Shown here one piece after another: positions 19-38,296 of a stretch of 52,781 nucleotides of DNA (positions are counted from its first letter, which is position 1; every line of letters begins with the position of its first letter). Location of the stretch: positions 1 through 52,781 of the forward strand of contig JAUSFL010000040.1 in assembly GCA_030649735.1 (NCBI GenBank). Direction: 5' to 3'. Below the pieces are notes generated by a model. It ran no database searches. It saw only the letters and a list, made by a program, of their open reading frames with translations, and had not been told where the DNA came from. This DNA is from Candidatus Iainarchaeum sp. Its GTDB lineage: Archaea; Iainarchaeota; Iainarchaeia; Iainarchaeales; UBA10191. A program made the translations under genes and the position numbers.

Positions 19-3000
19 TTATTTAATGCATTCTGATTCTGCGCTTTTTTCATTGCCTTCAATTGATTGGATTATTGGGGTTGGATTCCACCAGAACTTC
101 TGCTCAAGCCCTGTTCCAGAAACGCAAACAGTCCTGTTCCTAACCATGTTTAAAATTTGCCTGACTGATTGAATGCTTTCATTGGATGCATTTCCTGCGC
201 CAGTCAATGGCACGTTTGCAGTGCTTTGAGTGGAGTTTGTTATGAGGCTTGCGCTGTCGTTCGCGACGTCAATGCTCATTGAGCTTGTCCTGCCTTGAGG
301 CGTGTAAAAAATGCTCTTCAAGTAAGTGCTTCCAAAATTCTGCTGAGTGTCAGGCCATTCAAGCCCATAGGCCAGCAAAGAGCTTCTTGCGCAGGCAGTG
401 TCAAACTTGTTGCCTACAGTGCTTTTGTCCGCAAACCCGTCCTTGAATGCCTCTAAAGTGTATCTTCCATAAAAGTCCTTGCAGTTCACTCCAACGCCCC
501 ACCAAGGATTGCTTTCCGGGCCTACGTAAGTGTCTGTTCCGCTGATTGCAAAATTGTAGGTTACGCAGGCTTCTCCAGTATTGTTTGTCATTTTCAAAAT
601 GACTGGAGTTGCATTGCTTGGCGAAAACACGAGCTTGCTCTTGCTGATTGACATTATCATTCCGCGAGTGTCACTGAAATTCAATTTCTTGAAGCTTTGC
701 TCTATTGAAGTCTCCAAGACTCCGCCGTTTTCAGTGAAAGGGCTCCATGAGGCTCCGCCAATTGCCTTGATTGAAGAGCCAACGTCGCTGGTGATTGAAA
801 CAGGATCGCTTGCTGTTGACTTGTAATTCAAGCCGTACATTGTCCTTCCATTCTCCGAATCCACGGTTCCAACAAGCCCGTCAAACGGCAGGTAATAGAA
901 TGGCGAGAGTGCAGGCTGGTTTGGAGTCTTGTTCAACAAAACATGCACTTTTGCGTCAGGCACTCCGTTAATGAACATTTGCCAGTCTTTGTTGTTGAAT
1001 TCAATGTCAATTGTTGTTTCATACAGTCCAGGGCCTGGCAGCATGTAGCCAATGTCTGGAGCTTCGCTGAACTTTGGCCCGAACTTGAATTTGCCGAAGT
1101 CCTTGAAAATTGTTCCTAATCCAGGCTCAGTGCCTGATTTGCCAGTGTACCAGTCCGCAGTGTCCACGAAAGCCACATTGGTGTAATAATCGTCAAAGTC
1201 TTTCTGCAAGTCTGGAGAATACCTGTCTTGAGTCAAGTAAGCGTTGAATTTGATGTTTTGCAAAAAGCTTTCCTTGTTCATTCCATCGCGGTAAATTACT
1301 CCACGGCCTGATTTTTCAGTTGCTTCAATGAATTCCTTCAGTCTTGAAGTCTTGTAAGGAGGGCAGTTAGTCAATAATTGAGACGGCCTTACATCAATTG
1401 CAGTGCTTACTGAATCGTCAGCGGCCATTGAATTGCAGTTTGATATTGTGCAAGACGCGAAAGTAGGCTCAATGACTGCATTGATTGCGAAAGTCGTGCT
1501 TGCCTGCAGGCTCTTGAACTCGCAGCCTATTGTTGTCTCGCTGCTCACGTCAAATGTTTTAATGCAAGGCGGCAGTGCTGCCTGCGTGCTGGAATTCACT
1601 ACAGTGACTGTCAATTTTATGTTAGCCAATGCCGGAGCGTTATTTTTTACAGTGACAATTATGTTTGCGTCAGCGCTTCCGTCGCTTTTGATTTGGTAGT
1701 CAGGGAACAGCCTTGAAATTCCAATGTTGTCTTCGCCAATAGTGTTTGTTTTTTCCTCAACATTTGCTGAAGGGCACACTAATGGATTGTCTGCAAGGAA
1801 GTCCTTGATTACCTTGATTTTCTTCAATGATTCAATGCTGAATTGCACTCCGTCGCAAAAGGCATAATTTGCTGTTCCTTCATCGCAGGCTGTCCTTCCA
1901 ACATCCTGCCAGCTCCAATCAAGCAATACTTTAGGAACTGCCTCTTCCCCGGTGTTTCCAAAAATTCCCGGAGGCATGAATGAAACGCAGGCCTTGTTAG
2001 GGTCGATTACTGTATCCTGCAATAATTGTTCAGGGCTTATTGCATTGAATTGCAGCATGAAGTATTGCGAAGCGTCTTTTGGATAGCCTGTCTTTTCATC
2101 CAATTCAATGTCTGTAGTGTCAATGTCAGCTTCTGTAGGCTGGTCAAAGAATGAAAGCAATCCGCCATCGCTTTCCTCCAATTCAATGTCATCAATGCTG
2201 TAAGTCTTGTCAGCATAATCATGCCTTTCCGCGTTCACTTTCAAAAGCTTGAAGTTTGTTCCAGTGAGCAATGGGTCTTGGTTTGTGAATTTCAATTCCA
2301 TGCTTTGGTCTTTTAGCTTGCTGTCAATCCTGTTGTCAGTCCTTGTCGAGCCAACTTGCTCTACTTTAATTGTAGCGTCAGTTGTGTCACTGCCAGTCAA
2401 TTTTTGAGGATACATTGCAAAACTGCTTATTTCCAAATCACTCATTGTGGTTGTGAATTCTATTGTGTCCTGGTTGTTAATGTTATACATTGTCCTTGCA
2501 ATGAAAACTCCCACTCCTTGGGATAATGGAGTGCTTCCAAGCAATCCGCCCAAAAATCCCGCACTTCCCGGAATCAGAACGCTTCCAAGCCCGCCAAGCA
2601 ATCCTCCAGAACTGCTGCTGCCGCTTCCACTTCCCAATAAGCTGCCGAGAACTCCTCCATTGCCTGCTGAACCGCTATTTTGTCCTCCACTGCCGCCTGT
2701 CTGCATTTGGGCAGCTGTGGCCGCCTTTGCCAATGTGAGCTTTGCGCTTGCGTTAGTAATGTTGTCTTTGGACGTTTCAATCAATCCAGTCACTGTCAGC
2801 GAATCCACTCCGGCAACGCTTGCGGTTGGATTGCTTGCGCCAAGCAGGCTTTTGCCCACGCCATAGCTTGTTGTTGCGGCAGTGAAGCCTGAATAAGTTC
2901 CAAGAGTTTTTTCCTTTGATTCAACAAGGGTTGTTTTTTCAGTTTCAAGAGTAGTTGCAACTTTTTTTAGATTGACGGCTGCTGTGGCATATGTTAATCC

Positions 3001-6000: not shown

Positions 6001-8394
6001 GTATAATTGCTTTGCTGGAGGCTCGAAGTAAAAGTCTTCTGAAGGCACTTGCTCCATTCTTGGATAATAGATTGTTTCGCCGTCATTTGAAACTCCAGTA
6101 AGCCAGTAGTAGACTCCGGCCTGCTCTCCGACTGCCGCAGTGCTTTTGACAGCGAATGAGACTTCGGCTTCATAAACTCCTTCGCTTAATGAAGCTACTG
6201 GAATGTTTGCCCATTTTGCGTCTCCTTCAGTCACTGTTGCGGCATCGTTTCCAAACCCGTTGGCTTTGTTGATTGAAGTTGCCTTGAGAATGTTATTGCT
6301 TAAAGGCATGTTGACTCTTTTCAAGACCATTGAGTCTTTTTCCATTATTCCATACCCGAACTCGCCTTTTCCAGTGTGAACGTGCATTATGCTTTGAGAG
6401 TAAGTTTTTCCTGCGGGAACCAAAATCCTGAATTTTCCAACATACTCTTGCCCGGGGCTTACTGCAGGAGTTGCCTTGTCTGAATCAGTGAGTCCTGAAA
6501 GCGACTTGTCTTTCTTGAAAAGACCCAAGAATTCCATTTTGAAATCGTTTGCAAGAATTTTCGGCTCTAAAGTGACATTGAATGCTGTGACTTTGTTTGC
6601 GATTATCGGCTTTGAAATTGTAGTGTATGCCGAGTAGTCTTTCTCGCCAGGGTTTAACTGCTGCCTTGAGATTTTCACGAAAACTTCCTTGTCTGCCTTT
6701 GCAAACCTGCTTGTTGCAGGAAGAACCCAGTTTCCGTCACTGTCTGTCAGACTGCTTCCAATTTCAGAATTGTCAAACGCGTCAATTAATGTCACGCGCG
6801 CGTTCGCGACTGCAAAGCCTTCAGTGTCTTTCACGTTCACTTTCACTGAGCCATTAGGCACAATGAGCGAAACATTAAGGTAGAATGCTGAAGCATCCCT
6901 CAGCTCAAACCTTTGGCTTTCGCTTTTTCCAGAAGCGCCTTGCTTTACTGCAACCGCATAATAGTAAGTTGCGGGCTTAACGTTTGGAAAGTGCGCTATT
7001 CCATTAATGTCGCTTAATTGCTCGGCGTATGGAGTGAGGAATCCTTCCTTATCTTCGCCTGTTCCATAATAAAGCGCGACTCTGGCAGCTTTAACCCCTT
7101 TTGCTGTTTCTGCATCAAGCACCTTGACTTTTAATTCTCCAGAATTGCTTGCCGAAAACTTTTCCAAAACCAGGGATTCTGTCCTGTCGCCTTGCTGTTG
7201 AATGTCAATTTCCCTTTCAGAAACCAAGTAGTCCGGATGGTCTGCGCTTATAGTGTATTTTCCAGTCGCGTTAAGATTGAATGAAACCATTCCGTTAGCG
7301 TCTGTTGTTTCATCGTCAATTCTTGCGTTTCCTTTCTTTACTGTGACTTTCGCGTTCGCGATTTTCTTGCCTGTGTTGTCTTTTTCAACAACCTGCACTT
7401 TGAGCCTTACGCTGATGTCTTTTTCCAGAGTGATTGTTTTCTGCACTGTGTCTCCAGGCAGTGTTGCGAACTCGTCAGTTGCCTTAGAGCCGTACTCGTC
7501 TGTAGGGCTTGTCCTTAAAGTGTATTTTGAGGCAGGCTGTTTGAATTCTGCAATTCCTGAAGCATTGGTCACTTGCTCTGCAATCGGACCTAATTCAAAC
7601 TCAAAAAGCTTTACGCTGATTCCTGCAAGTGGCTTGTCGTCAAAGACAACCCTTGCCCTGATTGTTGAAAGCTCTGATTCAAGCTCTTCAAGCTGTACAG
7701 TTTGGGAGTCTGAAGTAAATGCAATGCTTTGCTTTGGGGCAAATCCTTCGACTTCAATGCTTGCGACAAGGCTTCCGCAATTGCTTGGGGCCTTTACTGA
7801 AGCACTTCCATTGCTTGTCGTTATTTGCGCTGGTTCTGGAATTGCTCCAGGGTTAGTGCATGAGAAAGAATAATTCGCGCTTTTCAAAATTGCCCTGTTG
7901 AATGAGTCTTTAATGTAAATTGTTTTTTGCAGGCTGCCTCTTGCAAGCTCAACAAGCACTATTGAAAGCTTTTTTGGCTCATTGGCAGTGAACTTGTCTG
8001 TTTTAGTCTCAAACCCGTTTTTTGTCACAGTATAATTAATTACTGAGTCTTTTTCGAAATCCTGCCTTTCAGTGATTCCCTGGCTGTTTGTTACAATAGT
8101 CAGGTTTGCGGGCATTAGCTTGATGCTTGCGTTTGCAATTGGGTCTCCGTCTACGGTTTCAACCTGCAGCACAACGCCCACAGTGGGCTTTGCGAGCAAT
8201 GGAGTGAGCAAAAACCATCCGCCCAAAATCAATGCCAGGATTATTACTGCCAGGACAATTGCAAAAGTAGGAACGATTTTGTCGATTGGGTCGACAATTT
8301 TATAGATTGGGATTACTTTGTCAACATGGTCAAGGAATGCATAGTATTTTTCTTCCATTCCGAAGTAAAGGTCTTTTAGAAAGTCGCCAGCCAT
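19..8394 (-). CDS. Giant membrane-anchored multidomain surface protein A
   Basis: This 2791-aa protein is predicted to stay in the membrane by one N-terminal helix with nearly everything outside. I see a cytoplasmic segment (residues 1-45, with EEKYYAFLD and IPIYKIVD), a membrane helix (about 46-68), then at least six carboxypeptidase-regulatory-like/Ig-like beta modules to about residue 600 (repeated 'G.V.F....GKY' turns). A CX4C module (CDSEFC, about residue 805) follows, then Cys-Cys Ig-like modules (CLQVTPKNW...NNC; CISFSKELL...KDC). An Ala/Thr/Lys-rich stretch with a Gly/Ser/Leu-rich segment spans about residues 1500-1965, and a C-terminal beta region carries EEAVPKVLLDW (about 2149) and NIKFNAYLTQDRYSP. 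Asn-X-Ser/Thr sequons are abundant, fitting archaeal N-glycosylation. It is a paralogue of the products at 8902-16620 and 18293-26629. It starts at ATG with GGGGTTATT upstream, 12 bases after the preceding gene's stop. It has no C-terminal membrane tail. The exact function is unknown; adhesin or cell-envelope scaffold is inference. Confidence 0.85.
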   Translation of the reverse strand: MAGDFLKDLYFGMEEKYYAFLDHVDKVIPIYKIVDPIDKIVPTFAIVLAVIILALILGGWFLLTPLLAKPTVGVVLQVETVDGDPIANASIKLMPANLTIVTNSQGITERQDFEKDSVINYTVTKNGFETKTDKFTANEPKKLSIVLVELARGSLQKTIYIKDSFNRAILKSANYSFSCTNPGAIPEPAQITTSNGSASVKAPSNCGSLVASIEVEGFAPKQSIAFTSDSQTVQLEELESELSTIRARVVFDDKPLAGISVKLFEFELGPIAEQVTNASGIAEFKQPASKYTLRTSPTDEYGSKATDEFATLPGDTVQKTITLEKDISVRLKVQVVEKDNTGKKIANAKVTVKKGNARIDDETTDANGMVSFNLNATGKYTISADHPDYLVSEREIDIQQQGDRTESLVLEKFSASNSGELKVKVLDAETAKGVKAARVALYYGTGEDKEGFLTPYAEQLSDINGIAHFPNVKPATYYYAVAVKQGASGKSESQRFELRDASAFYLNVSLIVPNGSVKVNVKDTEGFAVANARVTLIDAFDNSEIGSSLTDSDGNWVLPATSRFAKADKEVFVKISRQQLNPGEKDYSAYTTISKPIIANKVTAFNVTLEPKILANDFKMEFLGLFKKDKSLSGLTDSDKATPAVSPGQEYVGKFRILVPAGKTYSQSIMHVHTGKGEFGYGIMEKDSMVLKRVNMPLSNNILKATSINKANGFGNDAATVTEGDAKWANIPVASLSEGVYEAEVSFAVKSTAAVGEQAGVYYWLTGVSNDGETIYYPRMEQVPSEDFYFEPPAKQLYQVGITTLCDSEFCFSANIIEDLNGRRGLGEAVDESYNAKILNNYKLIFNISNNSKTTVHNDAQLRIKNEDESLLFKSYSIILPSGREITGTAGKSQLPDQDITNSQNQNRFEKGAVISGEIDFTPQTSSNGIISFKIASSSNPPGLYNIVFQKDLTIVVSAQNEFKVDIQPTMLPAGIESNIEVSVTDAKTNLEVEGAIITVKDRFKNTLVLGKTTRLGKATVRIPSLLPGEEITVTISKPDYNNKELKLKANDQLLEISPATIALAINASTESQKSTTVQVKNIASFPLKIEKLEYSNEGTSGNFLDDTAMNNALAEQQGAELNPNGSANITFTGFLTQEALALTDRQQVKGTLTITAGNYGQSWVFKVPVNATIGFGAELDAEDCLQVTPKNWTDSTEGKAISFEFKIQNNCSSKGQPIAISDLQAKVEWNGNEIGTFLLGIYESKSSGAIAAAELRAGYFKKLVSRFEAEKSYDAILSFTPSGGVDGVANAKIIIQAKNKTEGQKDQAMSQEITTELHVANLKECISFSKELLSITKDEKIAESMTDFTISNKKDCGEVKVFLSVLPDNTLSLVGAPTSGLIIADGGTSPAIQVIANKSTFPGQYAIIVKAQLEGQPTPSEITSLIEQDKTIRVRVWDASICIQLDKYEFNVFDDPEVPDDGFDNSELTNYCKDKDVPFKVDMSSFANAATDGLKWGLLTALLGALTNGLSGSGVGNIAGNAQTNAALEQSITSMTAISTAITGEKTAACLTLANSEKTFGEGFTGGCTDVTTSSTGSTVANDKATTTQIVAADDGKTSKIGNETITPQTDAVNTTDTYKTNVSAINGSCFPKSDAAALDKSLLQQTIAKLNETSDCFTTLSNYCDNPASKAYMGATCAAVAKAKAAEIQTKFSLTDTGFTATSGTIGAIDTASTSGVSAKTASLVFQKTALDGVTAYGPKLAVPNVSEAWARTTAAKTIEEKIPTQTGTYKTSLSTEQGKIKTQQTDAATAAAVGTGLTYATAAVNLKKVATTLETEKTTLVESKEKTLGTYSGFTAATTSYGVGKSLLGASNPTASVAGVDSLTVTGLIETSKDNITNASAKLTLAKAATAAQMQTGGSGGQNSGSAGNGGVLGSLLGSGSGSSSSGGLLGGLGSVLIPGSAGFLGGLLGSTPLSQGVGVFIARTMYNINNQDTIEFTTTMSDLEISSFAMYPQKLTGSDTTDATIKVEQVGSTRTDNRIDSKLKDQSMELKFTNQDPLLTGTNFKLLKVNAERHDYADKTYSIDDIELEESDGGLLSFFDQPTEADIDTTDIELDEKTGYPKDASQYFMLQFNAISPEQLLQDTVIDPNKACVSFMPPGIFGNTGEEAVPKVLLDWSWQDVGRTACDEGTANYAFCDGVQFSIESLKKIKVIKDFLADNPLVCPSANVEEKTNTIGEDNIGISRLFPDYQIKSDGSADANIIVTVKNNAPALANIKLTVTVVNSSTQAALPPCIKTFDVSSETTIGCEFKSLQASTTFAINAVIEPTFASCTISNCNSMAADDSVSTAIDVRPSQLLTNCPPYKTSRLKEFIEATEKSGRGVIYRDGMNKESFLQNIKFNAYLTQDRYSPDLQKDFDDYYTNVAFVDTADWYTGKSGTEPGLGTIFKDFGKFKFGPKFSEAPDIGYMLPGPGLYETTIDIEFNNKDWQMFINGVPDAKVHVLLNKTPNQPALSPFYYLPFDGLVGTVDSENGRTMYGLNYKSTASDPVSITSDVGSSIKAIGGASWSPFTENGGVLETSIEQSFKKLNFSDTRGMIMSISKSKLVFSPSNATPVILKMTNNTGEACVTYNFAISGTDTYVGPESNPWWGVGVNCKDFYGRYTLEAFKDGFADKSTVGNKFDTACARSSLLAYGLEWPDTQQNFGSTYLKSIFYTPQGRTSSMSIDVANDSASLITNSTQSTANVPLTGAGNASNESIQSVRQILNMVRNRTVCVSGTGLEQKFWWNPTPIIQSIEGNEKSAESECIK
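2505..2705 (-). repeat. Gly/Ser/Leu-rich low-complexity segment in giant protein A
   Basis: About 65 codons encode Gly/Ser/Leu-rich sequence (for example GSLLGSGSGSSSSGGLLGG), around residues 1896-1963. It follows an Ala/Thr/Lys-rich stretch and precedes a conserved beta region. It may be a flexible or weakly hydrophobic linker. It is not homologous to the Tyr/Asn-rich inserts of B and C. Confidence 0.75.
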
Positions 8395-8406
8395 GCAATA
8401 ACCCCA

Positions 8407-8877
8407 TTACCCCATCAACAATCCCGGAATTTCCTTCACTCCAATCACTGGAATGCTTTGCTGGAATAATGCCGGAATGAACGCTAAAAATAATGCTATT
8501 GTCAAATATAAACCCAATTGTTTTAAGTGTTCCTTGGAATAAAAATTGTCGCTTCCATGAAAGTCATCAAACAGCTTGAATCCTGAAAGCGTTCCCCCAA
8601 ATCCAGCAAGCAGGAAAGCAAAAAGGCTTATAATTCCTAACGGAATGTTTTGCATGAAAACCTGGCCTGAAATAAGGCCTGAAAAAAACATTGAGAACGC
8701 GGAAAACCTTCCAAAAAAAAGCAGGCATAAAGTGAAAACAAAAAAGACTGAAGCGAGAATTTCTGCCGGCGTTGAGAATCCCAAGAATTGTATTCCCAAA
8801 AATGCCGAAGTGACTGCGCCGCAAAACCAAGATGCAAAAGCAACTATCAAAAACCCGTTAATTCTGGAGTCTCTCAA
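8407..8877 (-). CDS. Small polytopic membrane protein between two giant surface proteins
   Basis: I do not recognise the family of this 156-aa protein. It has about five hydrophobic helices (around residues 7-28, 36-55, 58-76, 78-98 and 121-141) and a short charged loop (FDDFHGSDNFYSKEHLKQ) before the last helix. The TTG start at 8877 has AGAGGGAT just upstream, a good Shine-Dalgarno match. The gene sits 24 bases after the stop of giant protein B and 12 bases before the start of giant protein A, so it is almost certainly co-transcribed with both. A partner role in export or assembly of the giants is possible from context only. It lacks the HGI.E-type motif that would support a SpoIIM-like assignment. 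Confidence 0.75.
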   Translation of the reverse strand: MRDSRINGFLIVAFASWFCGAVTSAFLGIQFLGFSTPAEILASVFFVFTLCLLFFGRFSAFSMFFSGLISGQVFMQNIPLGIISLFAFLLAGFGGTLSGFKLFDDFHGSDNFYSKEHLKQLGLYLTIALFLAFIPALFQQSIPVIGVKEIPGLLMG

Positions 8878-8901
8878 TAAAATCCCTCTTTTGAGTAAAT
8901 G

Positions 8902-16620: not shown

Positions 16621-16776
16621 TTCTTAATCTAACTCAATTAACACTTACTTTTTTGTTGCATTCAGTATAAAAAACAATTTTTCCCATTTAAAAAACCAGA
16701 TGCCGGCTTTCTTGCTAATAGAAACTATTCCATTCTTTAAAAATGTTAGCATCTTTTATAAAAATTCATGAAGACT
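16621..16776 (-). promoter_or_regulatory. AT-rich intergenic region with candidate promoters for giant protein B
   Basis: This 156-base gap is the longest in the minus-strand cassette. Read on the minus strand it holds TATA-like elements: TTTTTATAAAAG (about 16752-16764), GGTTTTTTAAATG (16685-16697) and TTTTTTATAC (16664-16675). The second would place transcription start near 16660, giving a leader of about 40 bases before the GTG at 16620. T-rich runs could also end transcripts of the upstream gene. I see no hairpin or riboswitch-like structure and no convincing ORF. Confidence 0.45.
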
Positions 16777-18252
16777 TCAGCCGTTCTCGCAAGAGTAAGT
16801 TTCATCACCGGGCATTGGGAGAACGCCTCCAGAGGAAGCGATAACTGAATTGCATTTTGCAAGCGTTGCCTGGCTTGCTGTCGAGTAACTGTCGCTGATT
16901 TTTATTTTGTAAACTTTGTCGCTTCCCCTTGCCTGGTTTACCTTGAATTGCGACAAGGTTTCGTTAAATATTAAAATCACTTCAATTCCTGAAGACCGGA
17001 CGCAAATTCCCTTGCCAGTGTCCTGGCTGTTTGCGATGAAAATTTCCTTTGTTTCAATTGTTTTGGTTCCGCCTTTGACAATGCTTCCTGCGGGAATTCC
17101 ATCAGGCCATAACTTCAGGCCGTCGGTTGGGGTTGGATCTATTGAATCGCTGTTTTCAACATGGAATGTTGTTGCCCCAGTCGCTGTTATGTACTGCCTT
17201 AACGCGTTTGCCATTTCATTAGAGCTTCCAGTATTGTATGTTGCAGGGCACGCGCTTGCCGGACTGCAATTTAATGCCACTTCTTCAAGCGAGTGGCTTG
17301 CTGCTGCCGCTCCTTTGGTGTTGGGGCATAAGTATCCTTTTCCATCAGGGCCTGGAAAATTGCTTTGGTTGATTGCAATTCCTTGGCTGTTTGGGCTTTG
17401 CCTGATTGAGCAGTCTGAATCGCACATTCCAAGCCCGATTTCGTTGAATTGGTTTGAGCTTGCAAAAACGTTTTCGTTCGCGATTTTTTTCGCTTTCCAA
17501 AGCGCCTTGAAAATCCTTAAAGGCGCGTAAATCCTGAGGTTTCCTTTTGGAAGGATTGGCTGTTTTATCACGCGGCCTGTTGCCTGGCTTTTCACGACAA
17601 TTTGCGGAAGCTGATTGTATTGCTGTGGAGTAAGGCTAGTCAAATTCAAGTTTATGTAGAACGTTCCTATGTCGCAGCTTGAATCACTGCATTTGATTGG
17701 CTCAAGCAAAGTGTTGTTTGCAATTCCAGCATCAGCCATTACTTTTATTGCTGTCTTGAATTTTGAAGTGTCGTTTGGATTGTCTTCATTAATGACCAAT
17801 TGAACGTCATATCCCTTGAAAGCGTAAGTTCCAGAGCCCCTGGAGATTATTCCAACCAAGTAATCAGACATTGCATTGGCAAACTGTTCTGTGGAAGTTG
17901 TTGTCGCGCCATCAGCGCTTTGAATTTCCTTGCCCCCAAGCTCTGCTTTTGCAAAGTCCGAGACCATTTGGTTCCAGTTTGATGCGGAAGTCCTGTCCAT
18001 TACGTAAAATTCGTTGGTTGGGTCTGTAATCCATTTTTCAAACTGGTACCTGACTCCAATATTGAATAACTGCAATGCGTCAGCGCGCGCCAAGTCCGCA
18101 ATGTTTTGCATTTCAGTCTGCTCGTCAATTGTTTCAATTGTCTGTGAGGAATTCCTTTCAGACTCAATCATGCTTTGAACAAGCACGAAAGCCAAAGTAA
18201 TAAGCACAAAGCTGACTAAAGCAGTGAATAAAGTGAAGCCTTTGGAATCCAT
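16777..18252 (-). CDS. Large prepilin-like secreted protein (class III signal peptide)
   Basis: With the ATG at 18252 the protein has 491 aa and begins MDSKGFTLFTALVSF. This is a five-residue leader, a Gly processing site and a hydrophobic helix of about 20 residues, as in type IV prepilins; the GFTL form is closest to the bacterial pilin signature. The conserved Glu at position +5 of bacterial pilins is Thr here. After the helix come a charged helix (ESERNSSQTIETIDEQ) and a large globular part with cysteines (CDSDCS; CSPASACP). At about 490 aa it is far larger than a typical major pilin, so it may be a minor or tip pilin. A TTG nine bases upstream (18261) is an alternative start, but the ATG gives the usual short leader. 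It lies 31-40 bases after giant C and before giant B. Processing by a prepilin peptidase is inferred. Confidence 0.75.
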   Translation of the reverse strand: MDSKGFTLFTALVSFVLITLAFVLVQSMIESERNSSQTIETIDEQTEMQNIADLARADALQLFNIGVRYQFEKWITDPTNEFYVMDRTSASNWNQMVSDFAKAELGGKEIQSADGATTTSTEQFANAMSDYLVGIISRGSGTYAFKGYDVQLVINEDNPNDTSKFKTAIKVMADAGIANNTLLEPIKCSDSSCDIGTFYINLNLTSLTPQQYNQLPQIVVKSQATGRVIKQPILPKGNLRIYAPLRIFKALWKAKKIANENVFASSNQFNEIGLGMCDSDCSIRQSPNSQGIAINQSNFPGPDGKGYLCPNTKGAAAASHSLEEVALNCSPASACPATYNTGSSNEMANALRQYITATGATTFHVENSDSIDPTPTDGLKLWPDGIPAGSIVKGGTKTIETKEIFIANSQDTGKGICVRSSGIEVILIFNETLSQFKVNQARGSDKVYKIKISDSYSTASQATLAKCNSVIASSGGVLPMPGDETYSCENG

Positions 18253-18292
18253 TAAACTCAAGAATTAGTGAAGGCAAAACAACTATTTAATC

Positions 18293-21200
18293 TTACGCCG
18301 CCCTGATTTCGCTGACAAAGCCCTTAATGTCTGAAGCATATTTGGAATTGTCTTTGTCAACATAGTTTGTCGCAATTTTTTCCACAGTGTCATTTCCGCC
18401 AGCAACGTAATTCGAGCTGTTTTTTATGAGCTTAAACCAGTCTTCAATTCCTTGCTCCCAAGAATTATATTTGCAAAACTTTGCATTATCGCTTGCCCTG
18501 GTTTCAAACTTTCCAGTAGGGCAAGCGCTTGAAAACTTGATGTTCCCAATTGCTTTTGTTTTGACAGCCATTCCATCAAGCCCGTACTGGGATTCTGCCT
18601 TGAAAAACGCAAGCGCAATTGCTGGGTCTATTCCATTCCTTAATCCTGCCGCGTAAAATGTTTTTCCAGTCCCTTTTGCCGGAGAATTCGCCCGCGCCAG
18701 GATTTTGTCAATTTTTTCTGCAGTTATTGAAGGCTGGCCTGTCACTTTGAGTTCTGTTCCCGGCGTTACTGCGGCAGGGCTTGCTGCTGTTCCAGTCGGA
18801 GAATACAATTTCAATTCAGTCTCATTATAGCTTCCATCACAGTTCTGCAGCCATTCTGCATTCGCAGGAGCTTTTGAAGGCTCGATTATTGAAAAGTCCC
18901 AAGCTTCGCTCTTTCCCTTGCTTTTTGAAACAACTACTTTGTACGCTTGGTTTTTGACAAGCTGGAAATCCCAGCTTTTGTTTCCCTTTTCGTCAACAGT
19001 CACTAAATTTTTTAGTTGCATGTTTTGGACTGTTTTAGTGTATACCAAATACCCTGCAGCGTTAGCTAACACGCCATTCAAGATGCTTCCGCCAAACCTG
19101 AGCGTTTTTCCAGTCTTGCTTGCTTTCCAAAATGAAGCCCATTGCCCAAACTTTGACTGGCTTACTGTTTTAATTGTTGCAGCGCCTACTTTTGTATTGC
19201 TGCTTTCAGTGATTAGCTTTGAAAGATTTGTTCTTGAAGAAGCTCCCGCAACCCCTTTTCCTTCAATCTTGGTTATTGTCCCAAGCCGTGATTTTAGCGT
19301 CTTTTTCTCTGCTTCCAATGCAGTCCTTGCAGAACCTGCAGGCATTGTAGCGAGCTTTGAATCAATTTCAGCAATTCTTGAGCTTATTGTTCCAGAATCC
19401 AATAATTTTAATTGCTGCAACATTTCTTCTCTTGCAGTCTCTAAAGCTGTTGTTTCCTTTGCTGAAAGCCCGCCTTTCTTCAGCAATTCATCAATTTTTT
19501 TGATTTCCTCGCCCGCGCTATTGGCAAAAGCATCAACATTGCCGCTTGCTTTTCTTGCGGCTTCTTGAAGTTTGGTTTCGGCTTCTGCTATTTTTGGCGC
19601 GAACTGGTCGCTTTCAGTTATTGCATTATTTAATTGGTCAATGTATGTTCTGTCCCAGTTAAGTGTCGGATCGTTTGAGATTCTCGAAAGCTCTGTTTTT
19701 AATTCTGAAACTGACTTAAATGACCTTGTAGGCCTTGTGCCAACTCCTTGGATGGTCAATGGCGCTGCTTTTTTCAGTTTTGCAAGGCTTGCTTCTGCAG
19801 CCTGGTATTCTTTAAGGCCTGAAATTGCATTATCCGGAGCAACCGGATTTATAGGCGGGTTTTCCACTGTCTCTCCAATCCAGCTTTTTATTAATGGAAT
19901 AATGCCTCTCATTGTTTGCTCGCCGACAGTCGCGCTGACTCCTGCCCCGAACAATCCTGCTTTTTGCTGGTCGCCTTCTTTTGCAATTCCTAAAGCCTTC
20001 AGTCCTGAATAGCTCAAGTTCTTGAATCCTTGCAGTATAGAATCCAGTGCTGAAAGAATTGGGTTTTTAGTGTCAGAAAATCTTTTCATTCCCAAATCAA
20101 TCATTCCAAAAACAAGAGGCACTCCGCAGTCAATTCCTGTTGAAACCCCACTGGCAACAATGCTTCCGCCCAAGGTCACTAAAGCGCCAAGCAAGTCAAG
20201 CGAAACGTGAGTTGCAATGCAGGCTACAGTATAGCCTGCAAGGCCTGTTCCTTCAATTCGTCCAATTTCCTTATTGCCTGCAGTAGAGTCTTCAGAGTTT
20301 ATTCCAGTAGCAGGGTCATAAAAGTGCTTTCCATTAAGGAATGGCCTTAATTTTTCATCAATTTCCATTCCTTGGATAATGTCTCCAACTTTGGCTCCTT
20401 CCGGAGGGTTCGGAGGGTTTTTCCAGGATGGAACAAAGTAGAATTCTTTCTTTTCCCCGTCTTTTAGATTTAGCGCAGTGAGTTTGGCAAACAATCCGTC
20501 CTGTGTTTGAGGATGAATTGCGCAAGCGCTGAGCTTTACTTCGCTTGTTGTGGAAAATTGCTTGACTCCTAGATTGGTTGTGTCAAATGCCTTTATGGTT
20601 ATTGAATTGTTTCCTGCATTTGCAAACGACTTTGTTCCTTTAGTGCAGAGCATTAATTCTGTAATGTTTGCTTTTTCTTTTTTTCCAGCAATTGTTTTTG
20701 AAACAAGGAAAACTCTGTCTTCTGGCGCTAAAGGCTTTTTGTTGGTCTTATCTGCTGTGATGAAAGTTTGCTGCCAGTCAATATAGTCAGGCAAGTCTTG
20801 CGGTTTTTCAACGTTCACTCCAATTCTCTGGTTTGCCAAGTTTCCTGAAATCGTGAATGCACAGCATGACGGCGTGTTTGCGAAGATTTTCAGCAAATTG
20901 TCCGAAGCAACAACCTGCGGCTTTACTGCAGTTGAGTTTGTGGTTTGCTTTTCAAATTCTTGAATACAGGAGCTTATTTGCAGCTCGCCAAAGCTTTCAG
21001 AGGCTGAAGTGATCCTTAAGGTTTTTTCGTCTGCTGTAATGCAGCTTCCTTTTGCCGGAGCATTGCTTTTCAATCCATTGATTGCGCGAACCGCTTCTTT
21101 CAAGAATTCTTTCTTTTTCGCTTCCGAAGCCAATGCGTTTTCATTAATGAAAGCGTCCACTGTGACCGGCGCTGTTGGAATTCCGTTAAAGCCAAGGCTT

Positions 21201-24200
21201 ATTTCAACAATTCCTTGAGTGATGCTTTTCTTGCCAAGCAAGAGCTTGTTTGTCGAGCTGTTTTGCACAAAGCGGTCTGGCTTTCCAAACAATCCTTGCG
21301 CTATTTCTTTTGCCGAGTCTTCAAGGCCTGCTTCTGTTGAATCGACTGTTCCAAGCCAGCTTGACTTGTTGCTTGCGTAAGACAGTGTTGAATCTGCCGG
21401 CAAAAAATTCTGGAAATTCTGGATTTTTGCGTCGCATTCCGCAGTGTCTTTTTTCCCTAAAAGAATGACTCCGACTTTTTCTCTACCGCTTTGAATCTGG
21501 CCTGCAATGACATCGACTGCCCCGTCAATCCTGATGCTGTATTTTCCGCAGCTCCTGAATTGCGGTATTCTGATTTGCCCTGCAAATCCAGTTCCTGCTC
21601 CGACTGCCTCGATTATTGGCTCGCCTTCTTTAATGTCGCGGTAAATGACTTGCGAGATTTTTACTGAAGCGAAAGCGTCATTGCTTAATTTTGCCTGCAA
21701 TAATTCAGGGCTAAGCAAGTCGTTCTGGAAGTAAATCGTGTAAGTTTCCGGCTTTACTCCAAGCTCTGAAAAACTGCACGCCCGCGGGTTTGAAGTGCAG
21801 TATTGCGTGCTTTTTCCTTTCGCTAGAGTTGCCTGCTGGGCTTCAGAGACTTTTTTAGCGATTTTTTCAGCCAAAAAGTCTGCCAATTGGTCTGCGTCAC
21901 AGTAGCCGTTCGAGCAGTCTTTTCCAGAAGCTATTTTCGGGAACTTTACTGTTTTCTTTTTTGTCGCGTCTTCGCATGTTGGAATTTCAGCCTGCGCGCT
22001 TGTAACTCCTTCTGCAGAGTCTGCCGCTGTTTTTCCAAGCTTTACTGTCAAATTGATTGGCTCTGTCTGGATGCGCTTTCCGCTCCGGATTAAAGCGCCG
22101 TAAAATATTAGCGGCGAAGTAGTGTCGATTTCGTCCTTTTTCAAAAGCCTTAATTGTATTTTTGCTTTTCCATTCACTGGAATTGCCGCCGGGCCTGCAA
22201 TCAATGCAAGCTGGTTTGTTCCAATAGTTTTGGGCTCAATGTCTGTAATGCGCACTTCTTCAAGGCAAAAGTTTGAAATCGTGATTTCTGTTGTTTTCGC
22301 GCCTTGGCCTGTCATTTCCTCAATCATGTCCACTTCTTTTGGGGAAACCTGCAGGCAGCTTGGCGCGCTTGCGTGAATGAAAACATTCACTGTTTTCAGC
22401 GTGTATTCTTTGCCGTCAATTGTTCCCTTAATGTCAATTATTTGCCTTAGCACTTTGCTTTTGTCAACGTCTGCCTTTACAACAACCAATGCTGGGGGAT
22501 AAACTGACTGGCCTGGAGGCAGTGTAAGATAGCTTCTTTCAGGAACCAGCCTTAATTCAATTCCTTCGCCATACCCGCTTCCAATCTGGAAACTCAAATT
22601 TTGGATTGCCGTGTTTCCAATATTGCTCACGAACAATGGGGTTGAAGTTTCAATTCCGCTGGACGCGTAAATGTTCAAGGTGTCCGGCGCTTGGATTGCG
22701 AACTGGATGCTTTGCAAATTAACAGTCAATGGAATTGACTTTGACAATTGGTCCGCGTTGAATTCAATGTCAAACCCGCTGCTGCTCCTGCTGTAAAACG
22801 CCTGGCCTATTGTGTTTTCAATGTCAACAATTATTGTCTTTGACTCTCCTTTCTGCAAGTCAGTGTCAGGAACTGTAACCCTGATTCCAGAGTTTTCAAC
22901 CTGGCTTTTGACTTTGGCGATTAAGTTCAGCTCTTCTTCGCAATTGTTTGTCAATTGGACCTGGATTTGCCTTGCGCTTCCAGAAAAGCCCGAATTGTAA
23001 TTGTTTTGCTGTTGTGGGTAATAGCTTTGATTGTATCCTGAGTAATAGTTTGAATTGTACTGGCCGCTTGACTGCGGGTAATAGTTTGAATACCTTGAGC
23101 CAGTGCTTGTTGGAAGCGAGTAGCCTTGATTGTAGTTTAAATTGGAATACTGTGAATTGGAGTAATTGTTTTGCGAAGAATCCATTGGATTGTAGTAAAG
23201 CGTTGCCTGCAAAGAAGCTGGGTTTATTGTAAGGCAGCTTGAGTCAAGTTTTTGATTGTAAGAAATATTAACTTTGGTTGTTGCAGTTACTGGAATGCTG
23301 TCTCCTTGAATGCCTGAAGCCTGCAGTTGAACTGTAGTGTGCGCTGTTGTTGCAGTTCCATTGTATGATGCAGTCAACTGCATTGTTTCTGTCGAGTTTG
23401 CCATCATTGAGCTTATTGCAGTATAGTCCAAAACGAAAGTTCCGTCAAATCCTTTGGGCTTTATTGCCTCAATGATCAAGTTGCTTATTTCTTTGCTTGA
23501 ATTGTTTTTTATCACAAGCTCTGCTGTCGCTGTTTTTGCAGCGCTTGGAATCCTGATTTCCAATTCTGCAGGCAATTCCAGGACTCCCGGGCTTGCAATA
23601 GTGTATGAAGCGCTTAAAGGCCTGAAGCCTGGCGCAGTGATTTCAGCAGTGTACAAGCCTGCCTTGAAGACTCCCTTCACCAGGTATTTTCCGTACTTTC
23701 CCTTGTTCAGCCAGGCGCTTCCCAAAATCCTGAAAACTTCATTGCCTGAAACTGAATCCTTGAAAATTATTGTCGCGTTCTCGACTGGCTCTCCGTCTGC
23801 AGAATTCAGGATTACGCTGAAATTCTTTCCTGCCTCGCCCTGCAGTGGATTGAATGAGGCTTTCATTATTTTTTCTTCAAAAATGTTGAATGCAAAATTT
23901 TCTGTCTTTGAGCTTTTGCCAGTGACTTGCAATGCAATTGAAGAGTTTCCAACCGCAAGGGCCTTGAAGTAAATCCTTGCCTTTGTTTCCTTTCCTTTCT
24001 CTACAGTAATGTCCTTTACCTGGATTCCAGTGTCTTGCGAGTTAGTGTCTGGAATTTCAGTGAAAACTTCAATGTCGCTTCCTTGAAAGCCTATTTTTGG
24101 GCTTTCCCTGTTTGTTGACGCGTTAAGCACTGCGTTCAAAGTGTCTTTTCCTGAAAGCGCTACTTCCAAGGCGTAAACATTCCCTTTCACTGCCTTGAAG

Positions 24201-26629
24201 TCTTTTGCTTCAAAGCTGTTGAATCCTGCATCCAAGAACTTGAAGCTTGCGCATAATTCCTTGCTGCAGCTTGACTGCTCTGCATTGAAGACTGTTATTT
24301 CTTCATTGCTTGTTTCAGCATACAATCCGAGCTTTTGATTGTTGAATTCGGCAAGCGCCAATGTGGAGTCTGTCGGAGTCCTGTAAAACTGGCTGCTTAT
24401 CAAAGACCATGCCCTAAAATGCACTTCTTGCTTGAGCGCTGCGGCGTCTGAAAGCCTTGCTTGAATTTTGATTATTTTTGTGCCTTTAGGCTTGTCAAAA
24501 TACAATTCCACAAACTTGTTTGCCTTTCCTTCGCTTCCTTTGTTCAAGAAGTCTATTGTTTCATTGCCCGGCTTTGGAGATGCATTGTAAGTTCTTCCAT
24601 AAAAGTGATTTTGCACTTCGGCGTTGAATCCAGTGATTGCAATCTCTTGGCTTTCGGCATTTTTTATTCCATCGCTTCCCACTCTGACATGAATTCCGCC
24701 CTTGTATTCCCCTTCAGGCCACACTGTCTCAAAAACCAAAAATCCTTCCTGCCCTTTGACAAGCCCTTCAACTGTCTCTCCGTTCAGGCTTTCCAGGCGC
24801 AAGAGCCTGATTTCCGGAGCAAGGCCGTTGTTTTCTTTCTGGCCAATGCGCAATTCTTGCATTGCGGCTCCAGTCAAGGCCAGTGATTCGTCAAAAGTCT
24901 TTCCATCAGGCAATTCAACATGCACTTTAACGCTCTTGTTTCCCAAAGAGTCAAAAACAACTTTTGCATTGCTGATGTTTCCGTCAAATAGCACTGTTCC
25001 AGAGTCAGTCGTGATTTTCACATTGCCTTCATTTATTGGATTGCCGTTCTCGTCAAGGATTGTCAATTCTATAATTTCTGAAGGCGCTGCAATTTGTATT
25101 TCAATCCTGTTCAATGAGCCGGCGTCCAAGATTGCGTTTCCATCGCCTGTTGCAGTGTCTTTAGAGGCTTTCACGTAAAGGTTTGTTCCGGCCTTGAAAG
25201 CAGACCCGTAATATCCTGCGACATCAGTGAACGAGTCAGGCATTCCGAAAGGCAATAGGTCGCTTGTTGTCTGCTCGAAAAAAGTCAAGGCAGCGTTTGC
25301 CACCGGGCTTTCTTTTGAGTCAATTGTGAAAACTGCAGCGTTTGCCGCATTGCCTGCAATGCTTCTTTCCATTTCAAGCCTGAATGTTGGCGAAGTTTTC
25401 GGGAAAATTTTTTGGCTGACAGGCAAGTACCCGTCCTTGAATGCACTAATATAATAGCCGCTTTCTGAATTCAAGTCCTTGAATTCCACAAAGCCTCCAA
25501 AGCCAGTCATGTTCGCGTCCACTTTTTCAGCGCGCGCATTGAACAAAGTGATTAATGCTTCGCTCAAAACATTTGATGATTCCTTGTCAATTGCAGTAAC
25601 GCTTATTGTTTTTCCGCCCGCTTCCAAGAAAACATTCACTGTCTCGGCATCATTCCTTAATGTCAGGAAATCAGCTTCTCCGGCAGTCGAGTCAAAAGTC
25701 GCATAGCCTTCCTTGCTTGCAACCCACTTGATGCTTTTTCCCTTTCCAATTTGCTCCAAAAGCTCGCCTTGCACTGCAATGTCAGAGCTTAATTCTGCAG
25801 TCGAGTCTTTCTCGAACACTTTAATCAAAACTCCGTCAATCAATTGCCTTGTTTCATTGTCAAAAACCCTGAAAGTTATTGAAGCCAGTCCATTCGCGCC
25901 AGTGCTTGAAGCAACAAGCTTTACAGTACTTGCGTTTTCTGAATCAAAATTAAGGCTTTGCGCAGAATCCAAATACCCGTCTGCCTTGACTGTAATCCTG
26001 ATTGGCTTTCCTTCAGGCACTCCAATGAAGCTCCAGCTTCCGTCATTGTTCAAAGTGCCGGCGATTTTCTTGTCTTCGACTTCAGCAAAGACAGCCGCAT
26101 TCTTGATTGTGTCGCCAGTGACAGAGTCAACAAGCCTGATTTTTGCGGTCAATAATCCCGCAATCCTGTTTAATGTAAAGCTTTTCTGCAACGCGCTTTC
26201 ATTGATTGTAAGGTCCAAAGGGGCATTTTCAAAGCCTTCCTTTTGCGCCATCAACGAAAGCTTTGTTCCAAAATCAACTCCCTTCAATTCGATTTTAGTG
26301 TCAGAGTTTGTGGGCTTGTAGTACAATTGCATTCCGCTTTTCGCGTTGGTTATCGAGAATGATACATCATTCAATGAATTCCTTGCGTCGTCCTGAAAAT
26401 TCACTGTCAAAAAAACGCTTGCAGGGCTTGAAAAAAACAATAGCCAGGCGCCCATTATCAGAAAGACCAGGGCGCCGACAGTGAATGGAAACGCCGGAAT
26501 TCCCTTGCCTTCCAAAAATTCAGTGTAATTGTAGACTGGAATTCCTTTTTTTTCGAAAAAATCCATTATTCCGAAAAAGCCGTCTTCAAGCTTGGTGTAA
26601 ATTCCAGAAAATAAGTTTCCGATTCCCAT
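18293..26629 (-). CDS. Giant membrane-anchored surface protein C with C-terminal lysozyme/glucosaminidase-like domain
   Basis: This 2778-aa paralogue of A and B starts with the shared cytoplasmic signature (TKLEDGFFGIMDFFEKKGIP, then IPAF) and one membrane helix (about 50-70). Carboxypeptidase-regulatory-like modules run to about residue 600, the CX4C module (CSKELC) lies at about 787, and Cys-Cys Ig-like modules follow. One of these (CLTINPASLQ...QLTNNC) carries a Tyr/Asn/Gln-rich insert at about 1141-1220. Further on are CSNGYCDADQL, a hydrophobic stretch (ATHVSLDLLGALVTLGG), a Lys/Glu/Ala-rich coiled-coil-like part, and a final lysozyme-like domain (about residues 2635-2778). The chosen ATG (26629) has GGTG upstream; an in-frame TTG at 26635 would add two residues. 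The gene follows the archaeosortase by about 70 bases. Known family: terminal domains of this kind cleave glycan backbones of cell walls. The idea that C acts on another cell's envelope is inference. Confidence 0.85.
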   Translation of the reverse strand: MGIGNLFSGIYTKLEDGFFGIMDFFEKKGIPVYNYTEFLEGKGIPAFPFTVGALVFLIMGAWLLFFSSPASVFLTVNFQDDARNSLNDVSFSITNAKSGMQLYYKPTNSDTKIELKGVDFGTKLSLMAQKEGFENAPLDLTINESALQKSFTLNRIAGLLTAKIRLVDSVTGDTIKNAAVFAEVEDKKIAGTLNNDGSWSFIGVPEGKPIRITVKADGYLDSAQSLNFDSENASTVKLVASSTGANGLASITFRVFDNETRQLIDGVLIKVFEKDSTAELSSDIAVQGELLEQIGKGKSIKWVASKEGYATFDSTAGEADFLTLRNDAETVNVFLEAGGKTISVTAIDKESSNVLSEALITLFNARAEKVDANMTGFGGFVEFKDLNSESGYYISAFKDGYLPVSQKIFPKTSPTFRLEMERSIAGNAANAAVFTIDSKESPVANAALTFFEQTTSDLLPFGMPDSFTDVAGYYGSAFKAGTNLYVKASKDTATGDGNAILDAGSLNRIEIQIAAPSEIIELTILDENGNPINEGNVKITTDSGTVLFDGNISNAKVVFDSLGNKSVKVHVELPDGKTFDESLALTGAAMQELRIGQKENNGLAPEIRLLRLESLNGETVEGLVKGQEGFLVFETVWPEGEYKGGIHVRVGSDGIKNAESQEIAITGFNAEVQNHFYGRTYNASPKPGNETIDFLNKGSEGKANKFVELYFDKPKGTKIIKIQARLSDAAALKQEVHFRAWSLISSQFYRTPTDSTLALAEFNNQKLGLYAETSNEEITVFNAEQSSCSKELCASFKFLDAGFNSFEAKDFKAVKGNVYALEVALSGKDTLNAVLNASTNRESPKIGFQGSDIEVFTEIPDTNSQDTGIQVKDITVEKGKETKARIYFKALAVGNSSIALQVTGKSSKTENFAFNIFEEKIMKASFNPLQGEAGKNFSVILNSADGEPVENATIIFKDSVSGNEVFRILGSAWLNKGKYGKYLVKGVFKAGLYTAEITAPGFRPLSASYTIASPGVLELPAELEIRIPSAAKTATAELVIKNNSSKEISNLIIEAIKPKGFDGTFVLDYTAISSMMANSTETMQLTASYNGTATTAHTTVQLQASGIQGDSIPVTATTKVNISYNQKLDSSCLTINPASLQATLYYNPMDSSQNNYSNSQYSNLNYNQGYSLPTSTGSRYSNYYPQSSGQYNSNYYSGYNQSYYPQQQNNYNSGFSGSARQIQVQLTNNCEEELNLIAKVKSQVENSGIRVTVPDTDLQKGESKTIIVDIENTIGQAFYSRSSSGFDIEFNADQLSKSIPLTVNLQSIQFAIQAPDTLNIYASSGIETSTPLFVSNIGNTAIQNLSFQIGSGYGEGIELRLVPERSYLTLPPGQSVYPPALVVVKADVDKSKVLRQIIDIKGTIDGKEYTLKTVNVFIHASAPSCLQVSPKEVDMIEEMTGQGAKTTEITISNFCLEEVRITDIEPKTIGTNQLALIAGPAAIPVNGKAKIQLRLLKKDEIDTTSPLIFYGALIRSGKRIQTEPINLTVKLGKTAADSAEGVTSAQAEIPTCEDATKKKTVKFPKIASGKDCSNGYCDADQLADFLAEKIAKKVSEAQQATLAKGKSTQYCTSNPRACSFSELGVKPETYTIYFQNDLLSPELLQAKLSNDAFASVKISQVIYRDIKEGEPIIEAVGAGTGFAGQIRIPQFRSCGKYSIRIDGAVDVIAGQIQSGREKVGVILLGKKDTAECDAKIQNFQNFLPADSTLSYASNKSSWLGTVDSTEAGLEDSAKEIAQGLFGKPDRFVQNSSTNKLLLGKKSITQGIVEISLGFNGIPTAPVTVDAFINENALASEAKKKEFLKEAVRAINGLKSNAPAKGSCITADEKTLRITSASESFGELQISSCIQEFEKQTTNSTAVKPQVVASDNLLKIFANTPSCCAFTISGNLANQRIGVNVEKPQDLPDYIDWQQTFITADKTNKKPLAPEDRVFLVSKTIAGKKEKANITELMLCTKGTKSFANAGNNSITIKAFDTTNLGVKQFSTTSEVKLSACAIHPQTQDGLFAKLTALNLKDGEKKEFYFVPSWKNPPNPPEGAKVGDIIQGMEIDEKLRPFLNGKHFYDPATGINSEDSTAGNKEIGRIEGTGLAGYTVACIATHVSLDLLGALVTLGGSIVASGVSTGIDCGVPLVFGMIDLGMKRFSDTKNPILSALDSILQGFKNLSYSGLKALGIAKEGDQQKAGLFGAGVSATVGEQTMRGIIPLIKSWIGETVENPPINPVAPDNAISGLKEYQAAEASLAKLKKAAPLTIQGVGTRPTRSFKSVSELKTELSRISNDPTLNWDRTYIDQLNNAITESDQFAPKIAEAETKLQEAARKASGNVDAFANSAGEEIKKIDELLKKGGLSAKETTALETAREEMLQQLKLLDSGTISSRIAEIDSKLATMPAGSARTALEAEKKTLKSRLGTITKIEGKGVAGASSRTNLSKLITESSNTKVGAATIKTVSQSKFGQWASFWKASKTGKTLRFGGSILNGVLANAAGYLVYTKTVQNMQLKNLVTVDEKGNKSWDFQLVKNQAYKVVVSKSKGKSEAWDFSIIEPSKAPANAEWLQNCDGSYNETELKLYSPTGTAASPAAVTPGTELKVTGQPSITAEKIDKILARANSPAKGTGKTFYAAGLRNGIDPAIALAFFKAESQYGLDGMAVKTKAIGNIKFSSACPTGKFETRASDNAKFCKYNSWEQGIEDWFKLIKNSSNYVAGGNDTVEKIATNYVDKDNSKYASDIKGFVSEIRAA
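18296..18731 (-). other. Lysozyme/glucosaminidase-like domain at the C-terminus of giant protein C
   Basis: The last 140 or so residues run ITAEKIDKILAR, GTGKTFYAAGLRNGIDPAIA, FFKAESQYGLDG, AIGNIKFSS, NSWEQGIEDWFKLI, VEKIATNYVDKDNSKYASDI. This order (helix with 'G.DPA.A', catalytic-type Glu in 'KAESQYG', 'GNI', 'W..GI.DW..LI', and a late Tyr followed by Asn/Asp) is that of bacterial lysozyme-fold glucosaminidases and lytic transglycosylase relatives. The candidate catalytic Glu codon is at 18593-18595. Two Cys (ACPTG, FCKYN) could form a disulfide typical of secreted versions. Confidence 0.72.
22970..23205 (-). repeat. Tyr/Asn/Gln-rich low-complexity insert in giant protein C
   Basis: About 80 codons rich in Tyr, Asn, Ser and Gln (YSNYYPQSSGQYNSNYY; YYPQQQNNYNSG) interrupt the Cys-Cys module between CLTINPASLQATL and RQIQVQLTNNC. 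The location matches the insert in paralogue B, though the two inserts do not align residue by residue. Confidence 0.8.
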
Positions 26630-26700: not shown

Positions 26701-27261
26701 TTAAAGCTTCTTTTCAATTCTGGCTTTGGTGGCTTTCCTGAACCACACGAAATAAAACCCGGCAATCACTATCAGCAGGCTCAGCCTGAAGAAAACATCA
26801 TGCGTCAATTCCGCGGTTTGGACATTGGTCCCGAACAATTGCATTATTGTAACAAAAATTCTCAATTGGTTGAATGCAAACCCAAAAATTAGCGCCCCGA
26901 TTGCCCCGTAAATTCTTTTCTTCCACGCAATTCCAAGGCTTGCGAGAATTGCGCTTGCAAGAAGCGCGGTTTCAAGCCAGCCAGTGCACAAGTCTGAAAT
27001 TTGGATTTGGATTCCATGCACTTTCAAAAACACGCCGTCAGTGTTTTCAAGGACTGTTACTTTTGCGCTGTCAAAGCTTTGCAAGACTTTCGCGCTCGAG
27101 CCCGCAGTGAAAAGCTCTATGTTCTGCCAGCCAATCGCAAAGACCGCACCGTAATATATCAGCAAGAACGCCAAAATCCATGCGATGAGGAATTTTCCGG
27201 TTTTTGCAATTTCTTTCCTGTCAAAACCCAGTCCCTTGCCTTTTTGCTTTCTTGATTTCAT
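26701..27261 (-). CDS. Archaeosortase/exosortase-family transpeptidase
   Basis: This 186-aa integral membrane protein has an exosortase-type active-site layout: Cys92 in SDLCTGWLETALL, Arg134 in FNQLRIFVTI and His154 in ELTHDVFFRL, spread over the last helices as in archaeosortases. Hydrophobic helices lie near residues 22-46, 96-112, 116-131, 133-145 and 158-172, after a very basic N-terminus (KSRKQKGKG). Family members cut C-terminal sorting signals (motif, membrane helix, basic tail) and transfer the protein to a lipid or other envelope acceptor. It starts the minus-strand surface cassette, so giants, pilin or other secreted proteins here may be clients. The giants lack C-terminal tails, whereas the product of 43085-47623 has one. 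The ATG start appears leaderless, with a TATA element 27-30 bases upstream shared with the divergent gene. Exact archaeosortase subfamily is not assigned. Confidence 0.85.
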   Translation of the reverse strand: MKSRKQKGKGLGFDRKEIAKTGKFLIAWILAFLLIYYGAVFAIGWQNIELFTAGSSAKVLQSFDSAKVTVLENTDGVFLKVHGIQIQISDLCTGWLETALLASAILASLGIAWKKRIYGAIGALIFGFAFNQLRIFVTIMQLFGTNVQTAELTHDVFFRLSLLIVIAGFYFVWFRKATKARIEKKL

Positions 27262-37161: not shown

Positions 37162-37617
37162 TTGAATGTTAAAGGCCAGGAATCAGCGACTTTCGAGCTT
37201 TTGGTTGTTGCAGTGATGGGCTTGGCAATACTGGTGATTGTTTTGGGAATCTCCAATTATTTTTCAAGCAGGACAATGGAGGCCAGTGAAAGAAACTTCA
37301 ATGACGCCTTGAAAAGCGCGGTGAATTCGCCGAACGGGGCTGTCATTGTCGCGGAAGACATTATTCTTTCAGGCGGAAGCAAGACTTCAAGCTCGCTTTC
37401 AAAGCAAGTGAGCATTCCAGAAAATTGCATTAGAATTCAAGGCAGTGCTTCAGACTCTTGGTCAGTGAATGCGGGCGGAACAGCGATTTCAATCTCCCGG
37501 GCAATCCAGACCAATGTTTACTTCAGCTGTGCTTTGGGAGACGGGCATATTTCAGGCAGCGGCGAGGCTTGCGAAATAAGCTGCCTTGCGAGCTTTGGAG
37601 AAGAAATCACTCCTTGA
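37162..37617 (+). CDS. Pilin-like protein (class III signal peptide)
   Basis: This 151-aa protein begins MNVKGQESATFELLVVAVMG. A KG/Q processing site is followed by a hydrophobic helix, the archaeal prepilin pattern with Glu in the early helix. The globular part has four Cys (ENCIRI; SCALG; CEISC), probably in two disulfides. The TTG start has GGGTGAT ideally spaced upstream. That Shine-Dalgarno overlaps the stop of the platform gene, so translation is probably coupled. It is likely a fibre subunit or minor pilin of the system encoded around it. Confidence 0.8.
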   Translation: MNVKGQESATFELLVVAVMGLAILVIVLGISNYFSSRTMEASERNFNDALKSAVNSPNGAVIVAEDIILSGGSKTSSSLSKQVSIPENCIRIQGSASDSWSVNAGGTAISISRAIQTNVYFSCALGDGHISGSGEACEISCLASFGEEITP

Positions 37618-37666
37618 ATGCAAAGCTATTTAAATGTCGAAGAATTAATTTTATTGGTGAATTATA

Positions 37667-38200: not shown

Positions 38201-38210
38201 TTGATTACGC

Positions 38211-38254: not shown

Positions 38255-38260
38255 CAAAGA

Positions 38261-38273: not shown

Positions 38274-38296
38274 TACTTTCTGCCTGTTTCTTGCTT

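Follow-up and report, generated by a model that had tools for sequence, protein, structure and literature searches.

Judged by sequence comparison, the segment of about 45 residues that precedes the membrane helix in three giant proteins of this archaeal genome forms the N-terminus of a single giant-protein family found in two phyla, and it is under a constraint that is common to the paralogues and exceeds that of a mere membrane anchor. At about even confidence, we propose that it acts as a cytoplasmic, membrane-proximal docking element of giant type II surface proteins, which would bind one partner common to the paralogues. All coordinates refer to the window, the whole 52,781-nucleotide stretch of DNA analyzed here. 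The three ORFs and the motifs quoted for them by the earlier sequence-only reading were all located at the positions and lengths it gave.

19..8394, minus strand: giant protein A, 2791 aa, complete ORF as first read
8206..8262, minus strand: signal-anchor membrane helix of A (hydropathy)
8263..8394, minus strand: pre-membrane segment of A, residues 1-44, with EEKYYAFLD, IPIY and VPTF (shuffle test and profile)
8902..16620, minus strand: giant protein B, 2572 aa, complete ORF as first read
16423..16491, minus strand: signal-anchor membrane helix of B (hydropathy and AlphaFold2 model)
16492..16620, minus strand: pre-membrane segment of B, residues 1-43, with EDKYYAMLD, IPVY and IPSF (profile and AlphaFold2 model, mean pLDDT 92)
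18293..26629, minus strand: giant protein C, 2778 aa counted from ATG, complete ORF as first read
26420..26488, minus strand: signal-anchor membrane helix of C (hydropathy)
26489..26629, minus strand: pre-membrane segment of C, with EDGFFGIMD, IPVY and IPAF (shuffle test and profile)

In each protein the pattern at the start (43-47 residues) was followed by the signal-anchor helix and then by an extended outer part made up of carboxypeptidase-regulatory-like domains and beta domains related to them. A single membrane helix per giant, as had been proposed, was found in A and B but not in C, in which a further hydrophobic stretch was seen at residue 2137. Low-complexity stretches rich in Tyr, Asn, Ser, Gln and Gly were seen within the ectodomains of B (residues about 1310-1445) and C (about 1150-1215). 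Two further paralogues are encoded in the genome, D (1604 aa, contig C31) and E (2376 aa, contig C35). As E directly follows A in relatives and lies at a contig end here, the assembly is probably broken between the two, contig C35 (E; L010 right edge) continuing the left side of the window.

The first 75 residues of A, B and C were compared pairwise, and none of 10,000 shuffles reached the observed score for any pair (z = 17 for A-B, 12 for A-C and 20 for B-C), which bears out the claim that these N-termini are alike beyond random sequence. For the pre-membrane part alone, shuffle z was 15, 7 and 20, respectively. Between paralogues, 40 pre-membrane residues were 48% identical vs. 23-27% in bins of the ectodomain, and between orthologues 55% vs. 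25-36%; the membrane helix (35%) fell below the pre-membrane part. The inner part is thus the best conserved, as first read, and it is these differences that point to a constraint beyond membrane anchoring. Invariant or nearly invariant positions, polar ones included, were Y7, E11, D19, P27, Y29, P41 and F43. Y7, E11, Y15 and D19, which vary little or not at all, are spaced by four and lie on one helical face. For helix 1 the conservation moment was marginal only (P = 0.07). The segment is acidic, with a mean net charge of -2.7.

The segment was found to consist of two copies of one 14-residue unit, and both proline motifs belong to the copies. In B these were placed by an internal-repeat test and alignment columns:

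16534..16575, minus strand: unit copy 1 of B, AMLDWLDKHGIPVY
16492..16533, minus strand: unit copy 2 of B, KVVDAVEANNIPSF

At this period of 14, D19/D33, D22/E36, I26/I40, P27/P41 and Y29/F43 are equivalent. With the Pro-x-aromatic part left out, in-register similarity over 71 sequences was +7.8, all other shifts gave at most -2.9 and shuffles gave -10.1 ± 0.9; as the 71 sequences are interrelated, these scores do not amount to a true z-score. E of the window genome has one unit only (YYGIIDWLDDRGIPHF, then the membrane helix; L010:17440-17627, minus strand), and its counterpart in relatives has two.

AlphaFold2 (B numbering) gave a helix at 4-23, a second at 28-37 and the membrane helix at 42-65 (pLDDT 93-97), followed by a TTR/CnaB-like beta domain. 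The predicted segment begins with an amphipathic helix, which a GIP turn joins to a short second helix; an IPSF turn then runs straight into the signal-anchor helix. Hydrophobic moments were significant for both helices (P = 0.01 and 0.007). Lysine plus arginine came to 4.6 ahead of the membrane helix and 1.0 in the 20 residues after it. This excess, together with the peptidoglycan-hydrolase and TTR-like domains beyond the helix, suggests from composition and model that the N-terminus lies inside (N-in, C-out; type II). No conserved cleavage site was seen after the membrane helix in the alignment columns, and by this measure the signal-anchor is apparently uncleaved and the giants seem to stay anchored.

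The outer parts of A, B and C had been described as diverging. In degree they do, at 23-27% identity against 48% for the inner part, but they are not unrelated: over about 1,200-1,500 residues the ectodomains align colinearly as homologues (blastp E = 3e-81 for A-B and 1e-20 for B-C). Among 91 carriers of the segment, all 87 with enough downstream sequence matched the ectodomain profile at E < 1e-3 (86 at E < 1e-6), and D and the long carriers in the fetched micrarchaeal loci matched at E ≤ 1e-26. A portable sorting tag on unrelated proteins was rejected, since every testable carrier has the family ectodomain; the segment belongs to one family, and the sorting or assembly tag on otherwise diverging proteins that the sequence-only reading suggested is to this extent not supported. 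Apparent small proteins bearing it were discarded as a contig-end fragment (L172) or chance matches (L006 and L173). One micrarchaeal protein of 1636 aa, encoded between two segment-bearing giants (L209/L210 joined, position 19434-24341, plus strand), has the family ectodomain without the segment.

With the N-termini of the window, all Pfam and NCBIfam models stayed below their cut-offs, and among 34 members only weak Pfam matches were found, in keeping with the claim that no named domain has this form. Solved structures held no sequence relative of the segment, the only match of a fold search with the model was to the TTR/CnaB-like ectodomain, and viral contigs gave no match. No description of the giants or of their N-terminus was found in the open-access literature.

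A profile built from five N-termini matched in 49 of the 53 nearest-relative genomes, nearly all of the same order. With 34 N-termini, matches were obtained in 81/87 genomes of the Iainarchaeota/Diapherotrites phylum, including all 25 that were at least 90% complete. In a sample of 295 Micrarchaeota, 30 genomes matched, or 29 once one chance-level match was dropped, and these 29 make up exactly one order (29/29 of its genomes); outside that order there were 0/266 Micrarchaeota (one marginal match judged to be chance) and none elsewhere in the class sample. Carriers with a name were Candidatus Diapherotrites (Iainarchaeota), AR10 among them, and records bearing the label Micrarchaeota. When 84,980 species were scanned with a pattern, which is less sensitive than the profile and may have passed over weaker relatives elsewhere, the only matches were in records labelled Diapherotrites ('Ca. 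ainarchaeum' among them) or Micrarchaeota, in one labelled Marsarchaeota and in a few from unclassified archaea. As the sequence-only reading expected of a profile search, matches lay nowhere but at the N-terminus of giant proteins, of which a genome usually had several.

Across the order the genes run C, pilin-like protein, B, small membrane protein, A, E, and orthologues of A were present in 9/9 same-order Iainarchaeota genomes with compared loci. The adjacency of the giants to archaeosortase and pilus-type genes, noted at first reading, was seen here and in many relatives, where an archaeosortase, a T2SSE ATPase, a double T2SSF platform, pilin-like proteins and a 1515-aa secreted protein lie beside them.

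8410..8877, minus strand: small 4-TM protein between B and A (homologues at the equivalent place in other genomes)
16777..18252, minus strand: pilin-like protein encoded between C and B (motif KGFTLFTAL, which lacks Glu5, ahead of a helix predicted to span 70 residues)
26701..27261, minus strand: archaeosortase (TIGR04178, E = 2e-7, 31.2 vs. cut-off 23 bits; conserved Cys, Arg and His)
28330..30606, plus strand: T2SSE/PilB-type ATPase (PF00437, E = 5e-19)
34783..37155, plus strand: double T2SSF (TadC-like) platform, candidate docking partner (PF00482, weak)
37162..41154, plus strand: cluster of pilin-like membrane proteins (class III-type N-termini, e.g. SKGQ/SRGQ)
43076..47623, plus strand: 1515-aa secreted protein (family co-distributed with the segment in Micrarchaeota)

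The pilin-like protein between C and B (494 aa) was found at that place in the compared loci and in 66/87 genomes of the phylum, with a strongly conserved start, [KR][GA]F[NT]LFTAL. It had no Pfam match and, in a fold search, no PDB match at E ≤ 0.001; a GspK-like tip pilin was considered as a candidate identity. The double platform was present in 71/87 phylum genomes, mostly as a single copy. Between the T2SSE and T2SSF genes lies a subtilase (30663-34694, minus strand) that matches dockerin weakly and is rich in Cys at its N-terminus, and a second, single-domain T2SSF pair (49542-51199, minus strand) is set apart from the double-domain platform. Action of the archaeosortase on the giants was considered and found unsupported, the C-termini of A and B having no hydrophobic anchor.

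Among the 29 micrarchaeal carriers (of 295 genomes), the platform was found in 28, the archaeosortase in 27 and the 1515-aa protein in 26, and strong matches among non-carriers were limited to one genome, with the platform. This co-occurrence was rejected as proof of partnership because it is confounded by clade. As carriers form one order, the comparison shows a co-inherited system rather than independent gains.

In the docking role proposed above, the giants would be inserted by Sec through their signal-anchor, both segment helices would remain at the inner face of the membrane, the Tyr/Glu/Tyr/Asp stripe and the Pro-x-aromatic turns would bind the single partner of all paralogues, and the several giants of a cell would thereby come together as a single complex where the type IV pilus-type machine of the locus has its base. 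For the partner we infer, purely by conjecture, the T2SSF/T2SSE platform as a tentative and rather doubtful candidate; the giants' own segments, which would then form a hetero-oligomer, are an equally conjectural and slightly less probable one. A protein contact is favored over mere lipid anchoring because some invariant residues are polar and the constraint is common to the paralogues. Docking is also favored by the conserved gene order, which includes a pilin-like gene, by the mostly single-copy platform of the phylum and, within the limit set by common descent, by the joint occurrence in Micrarchaeota. Against docking, the carriers compared never show the segment without the family ectodomain, as expected for a plain part of the protein. 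The segment is also not strictly required, since E has lost one unit and the 1636-aa paralogue does without it, and the marginal conservation moment of helix 1 counts against docking as well.

That paralogue also weighs against a targeting or export element that SRP, SecY or a site such as a pole or septum would recognize while the protein is being inserted, in the manner of an extended signal peptide and with no lasting partner. In its favor, the segment stands directly ahead of the signal-anchor in exported proteins of very large size, a position like that of ESPR, YSIRK and KxYKxGKxW signals, but the n-regions of those signals are basic and the segment is acidic, and the giants seem to stay anchored; we think this explanation improbable. 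Two amphipathic inner-leaflet helices could instead clamp a very heavy ectodomain as a passive anchor at the membrane interface, for which the significant moments of both helices and the Tyr/Trp and Pro residues near the interface can be cited. Yet charged residues are among the most conserved (E11 and D19, also D33/E36), the segment is net negative, and lipid binding alone is not expected to fix single residues across two phyla, which makes a passive anchor quite improbable. Least credit is due to the view that the segment is simply the slowest-evolving part of a fast-evolving family, its likeness being ordinary paralogy with no specific common function: common descent does explain its presence, as every carrier has the ectodomain, but identity about twice that of other regions, in paralogues and orthologues of two phyla, renders this view very improbable.

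A C-terminal domain bears on what the giants, docked or not, may contact.

18320..18664, minus strand: glucosaminidase domain of C (PF01832, E = 9e-8, above cut-off)

The tails of two C orthologues (loci L178/L179 and L202/L203) had a weak glucosaminidase match with Amidase_2 (G012) and NlpC/P60 with Amidase_3 and glucosaminidase (G014), and the remaining C orthologue tails tested had no recognized domain. From these sequences the tip of C looks exchangeable among orthologues. For peptidoglycan hydrolases of other archaea, killing of bacteria has been reported (PMC12352652). That a surface protein of an archaeon bears such exchangeable modules for peptidoglycan hydrolysis suggests that it meets bacteria, and the neighbors addressed by C may include them. 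On the most extended form of the docking proposal, which we consider unlikely to hold in full, the segments of the giants would come together as a ring or bundle where the pilus-type platform faces the cytoplasm; Iainarchaeota and one micrarchaeal order would then possess a contact machine that spans the envelope and has not been described before, with C presenting exchangeable glucosaminidase, amidase and NlpC/P60 tips toward bacterial neighbors.

The five giants take up about 3% of a 1.3-Mb genome and have one conserved N-terminal element in common. The segment offers a precise handle on how DPANN archaea with tiny genomes touch and exploit other cells, as a short soluble bait for partners, a metagenome marker and a set of targets for point mutation.

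Loci of archaeal type IV pili (PMC4858521) likewise encode large surface proteins beside an ATPase, pilins and a platform of the TadC type; the main text of that 2016 census uses none of the terms DPANN, AR10, Iainarchaeum and Micrarchaeum. A 2019 paper (PMC6393860) speaks in general terms only of pilus islands in DPANN that contain TadC and surface proteins, and these passages do not describe the giants or their N-terminus. The SPEARE proteins of Nanohaloarchaeota (PMC6642349) are also very large DPANN surface proteins with the intracellular portion best conserved, but most of them are anchored close to the C-terminus and have a restriction-enzyme-like inner part, whereas here the inner part is a 45-residue N-terminal segment; Pfam found no restriction-enzyme-like domain in A, B or C. 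The Ish1 helix-extended loop-helix motif (PF10281), which like the segment is predicted as helix-loop-helix, matched weakly around WLxxHGIP in 5/34 members (best E = 0.007; B 16.1 bits vs. cut-off 26.6, 12 residues aligned), a lead that falls short of membership.

In bacteria, ESPR, YSIRK and KxYKxGKxW regions stand directly ahead of the export signal of very large proteins. Like the segment, YSIRK/GXXS, KxYKxGKxW and the ESPR of autotransporters are short conserved N-terminal regions in or before the signal of large surface proteins, whose export they are thought to steer; for YSIRK/GXXS, direction of septal secretion has been reported (PMC5962339). No Pfam or NCBIfam match to YSIRK, KxYKxGKxW or ESPR was obtained, and their motifs are absent from the segment alignment. 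The segment differs from them in being acidic and archaeal, in its duplicated helix-Pro unit and apparently uncleaved anchor, and in its restriction to one ectodomain family. Targeting signals of the YSIRK/ESPR type are its nearest functional analogues.
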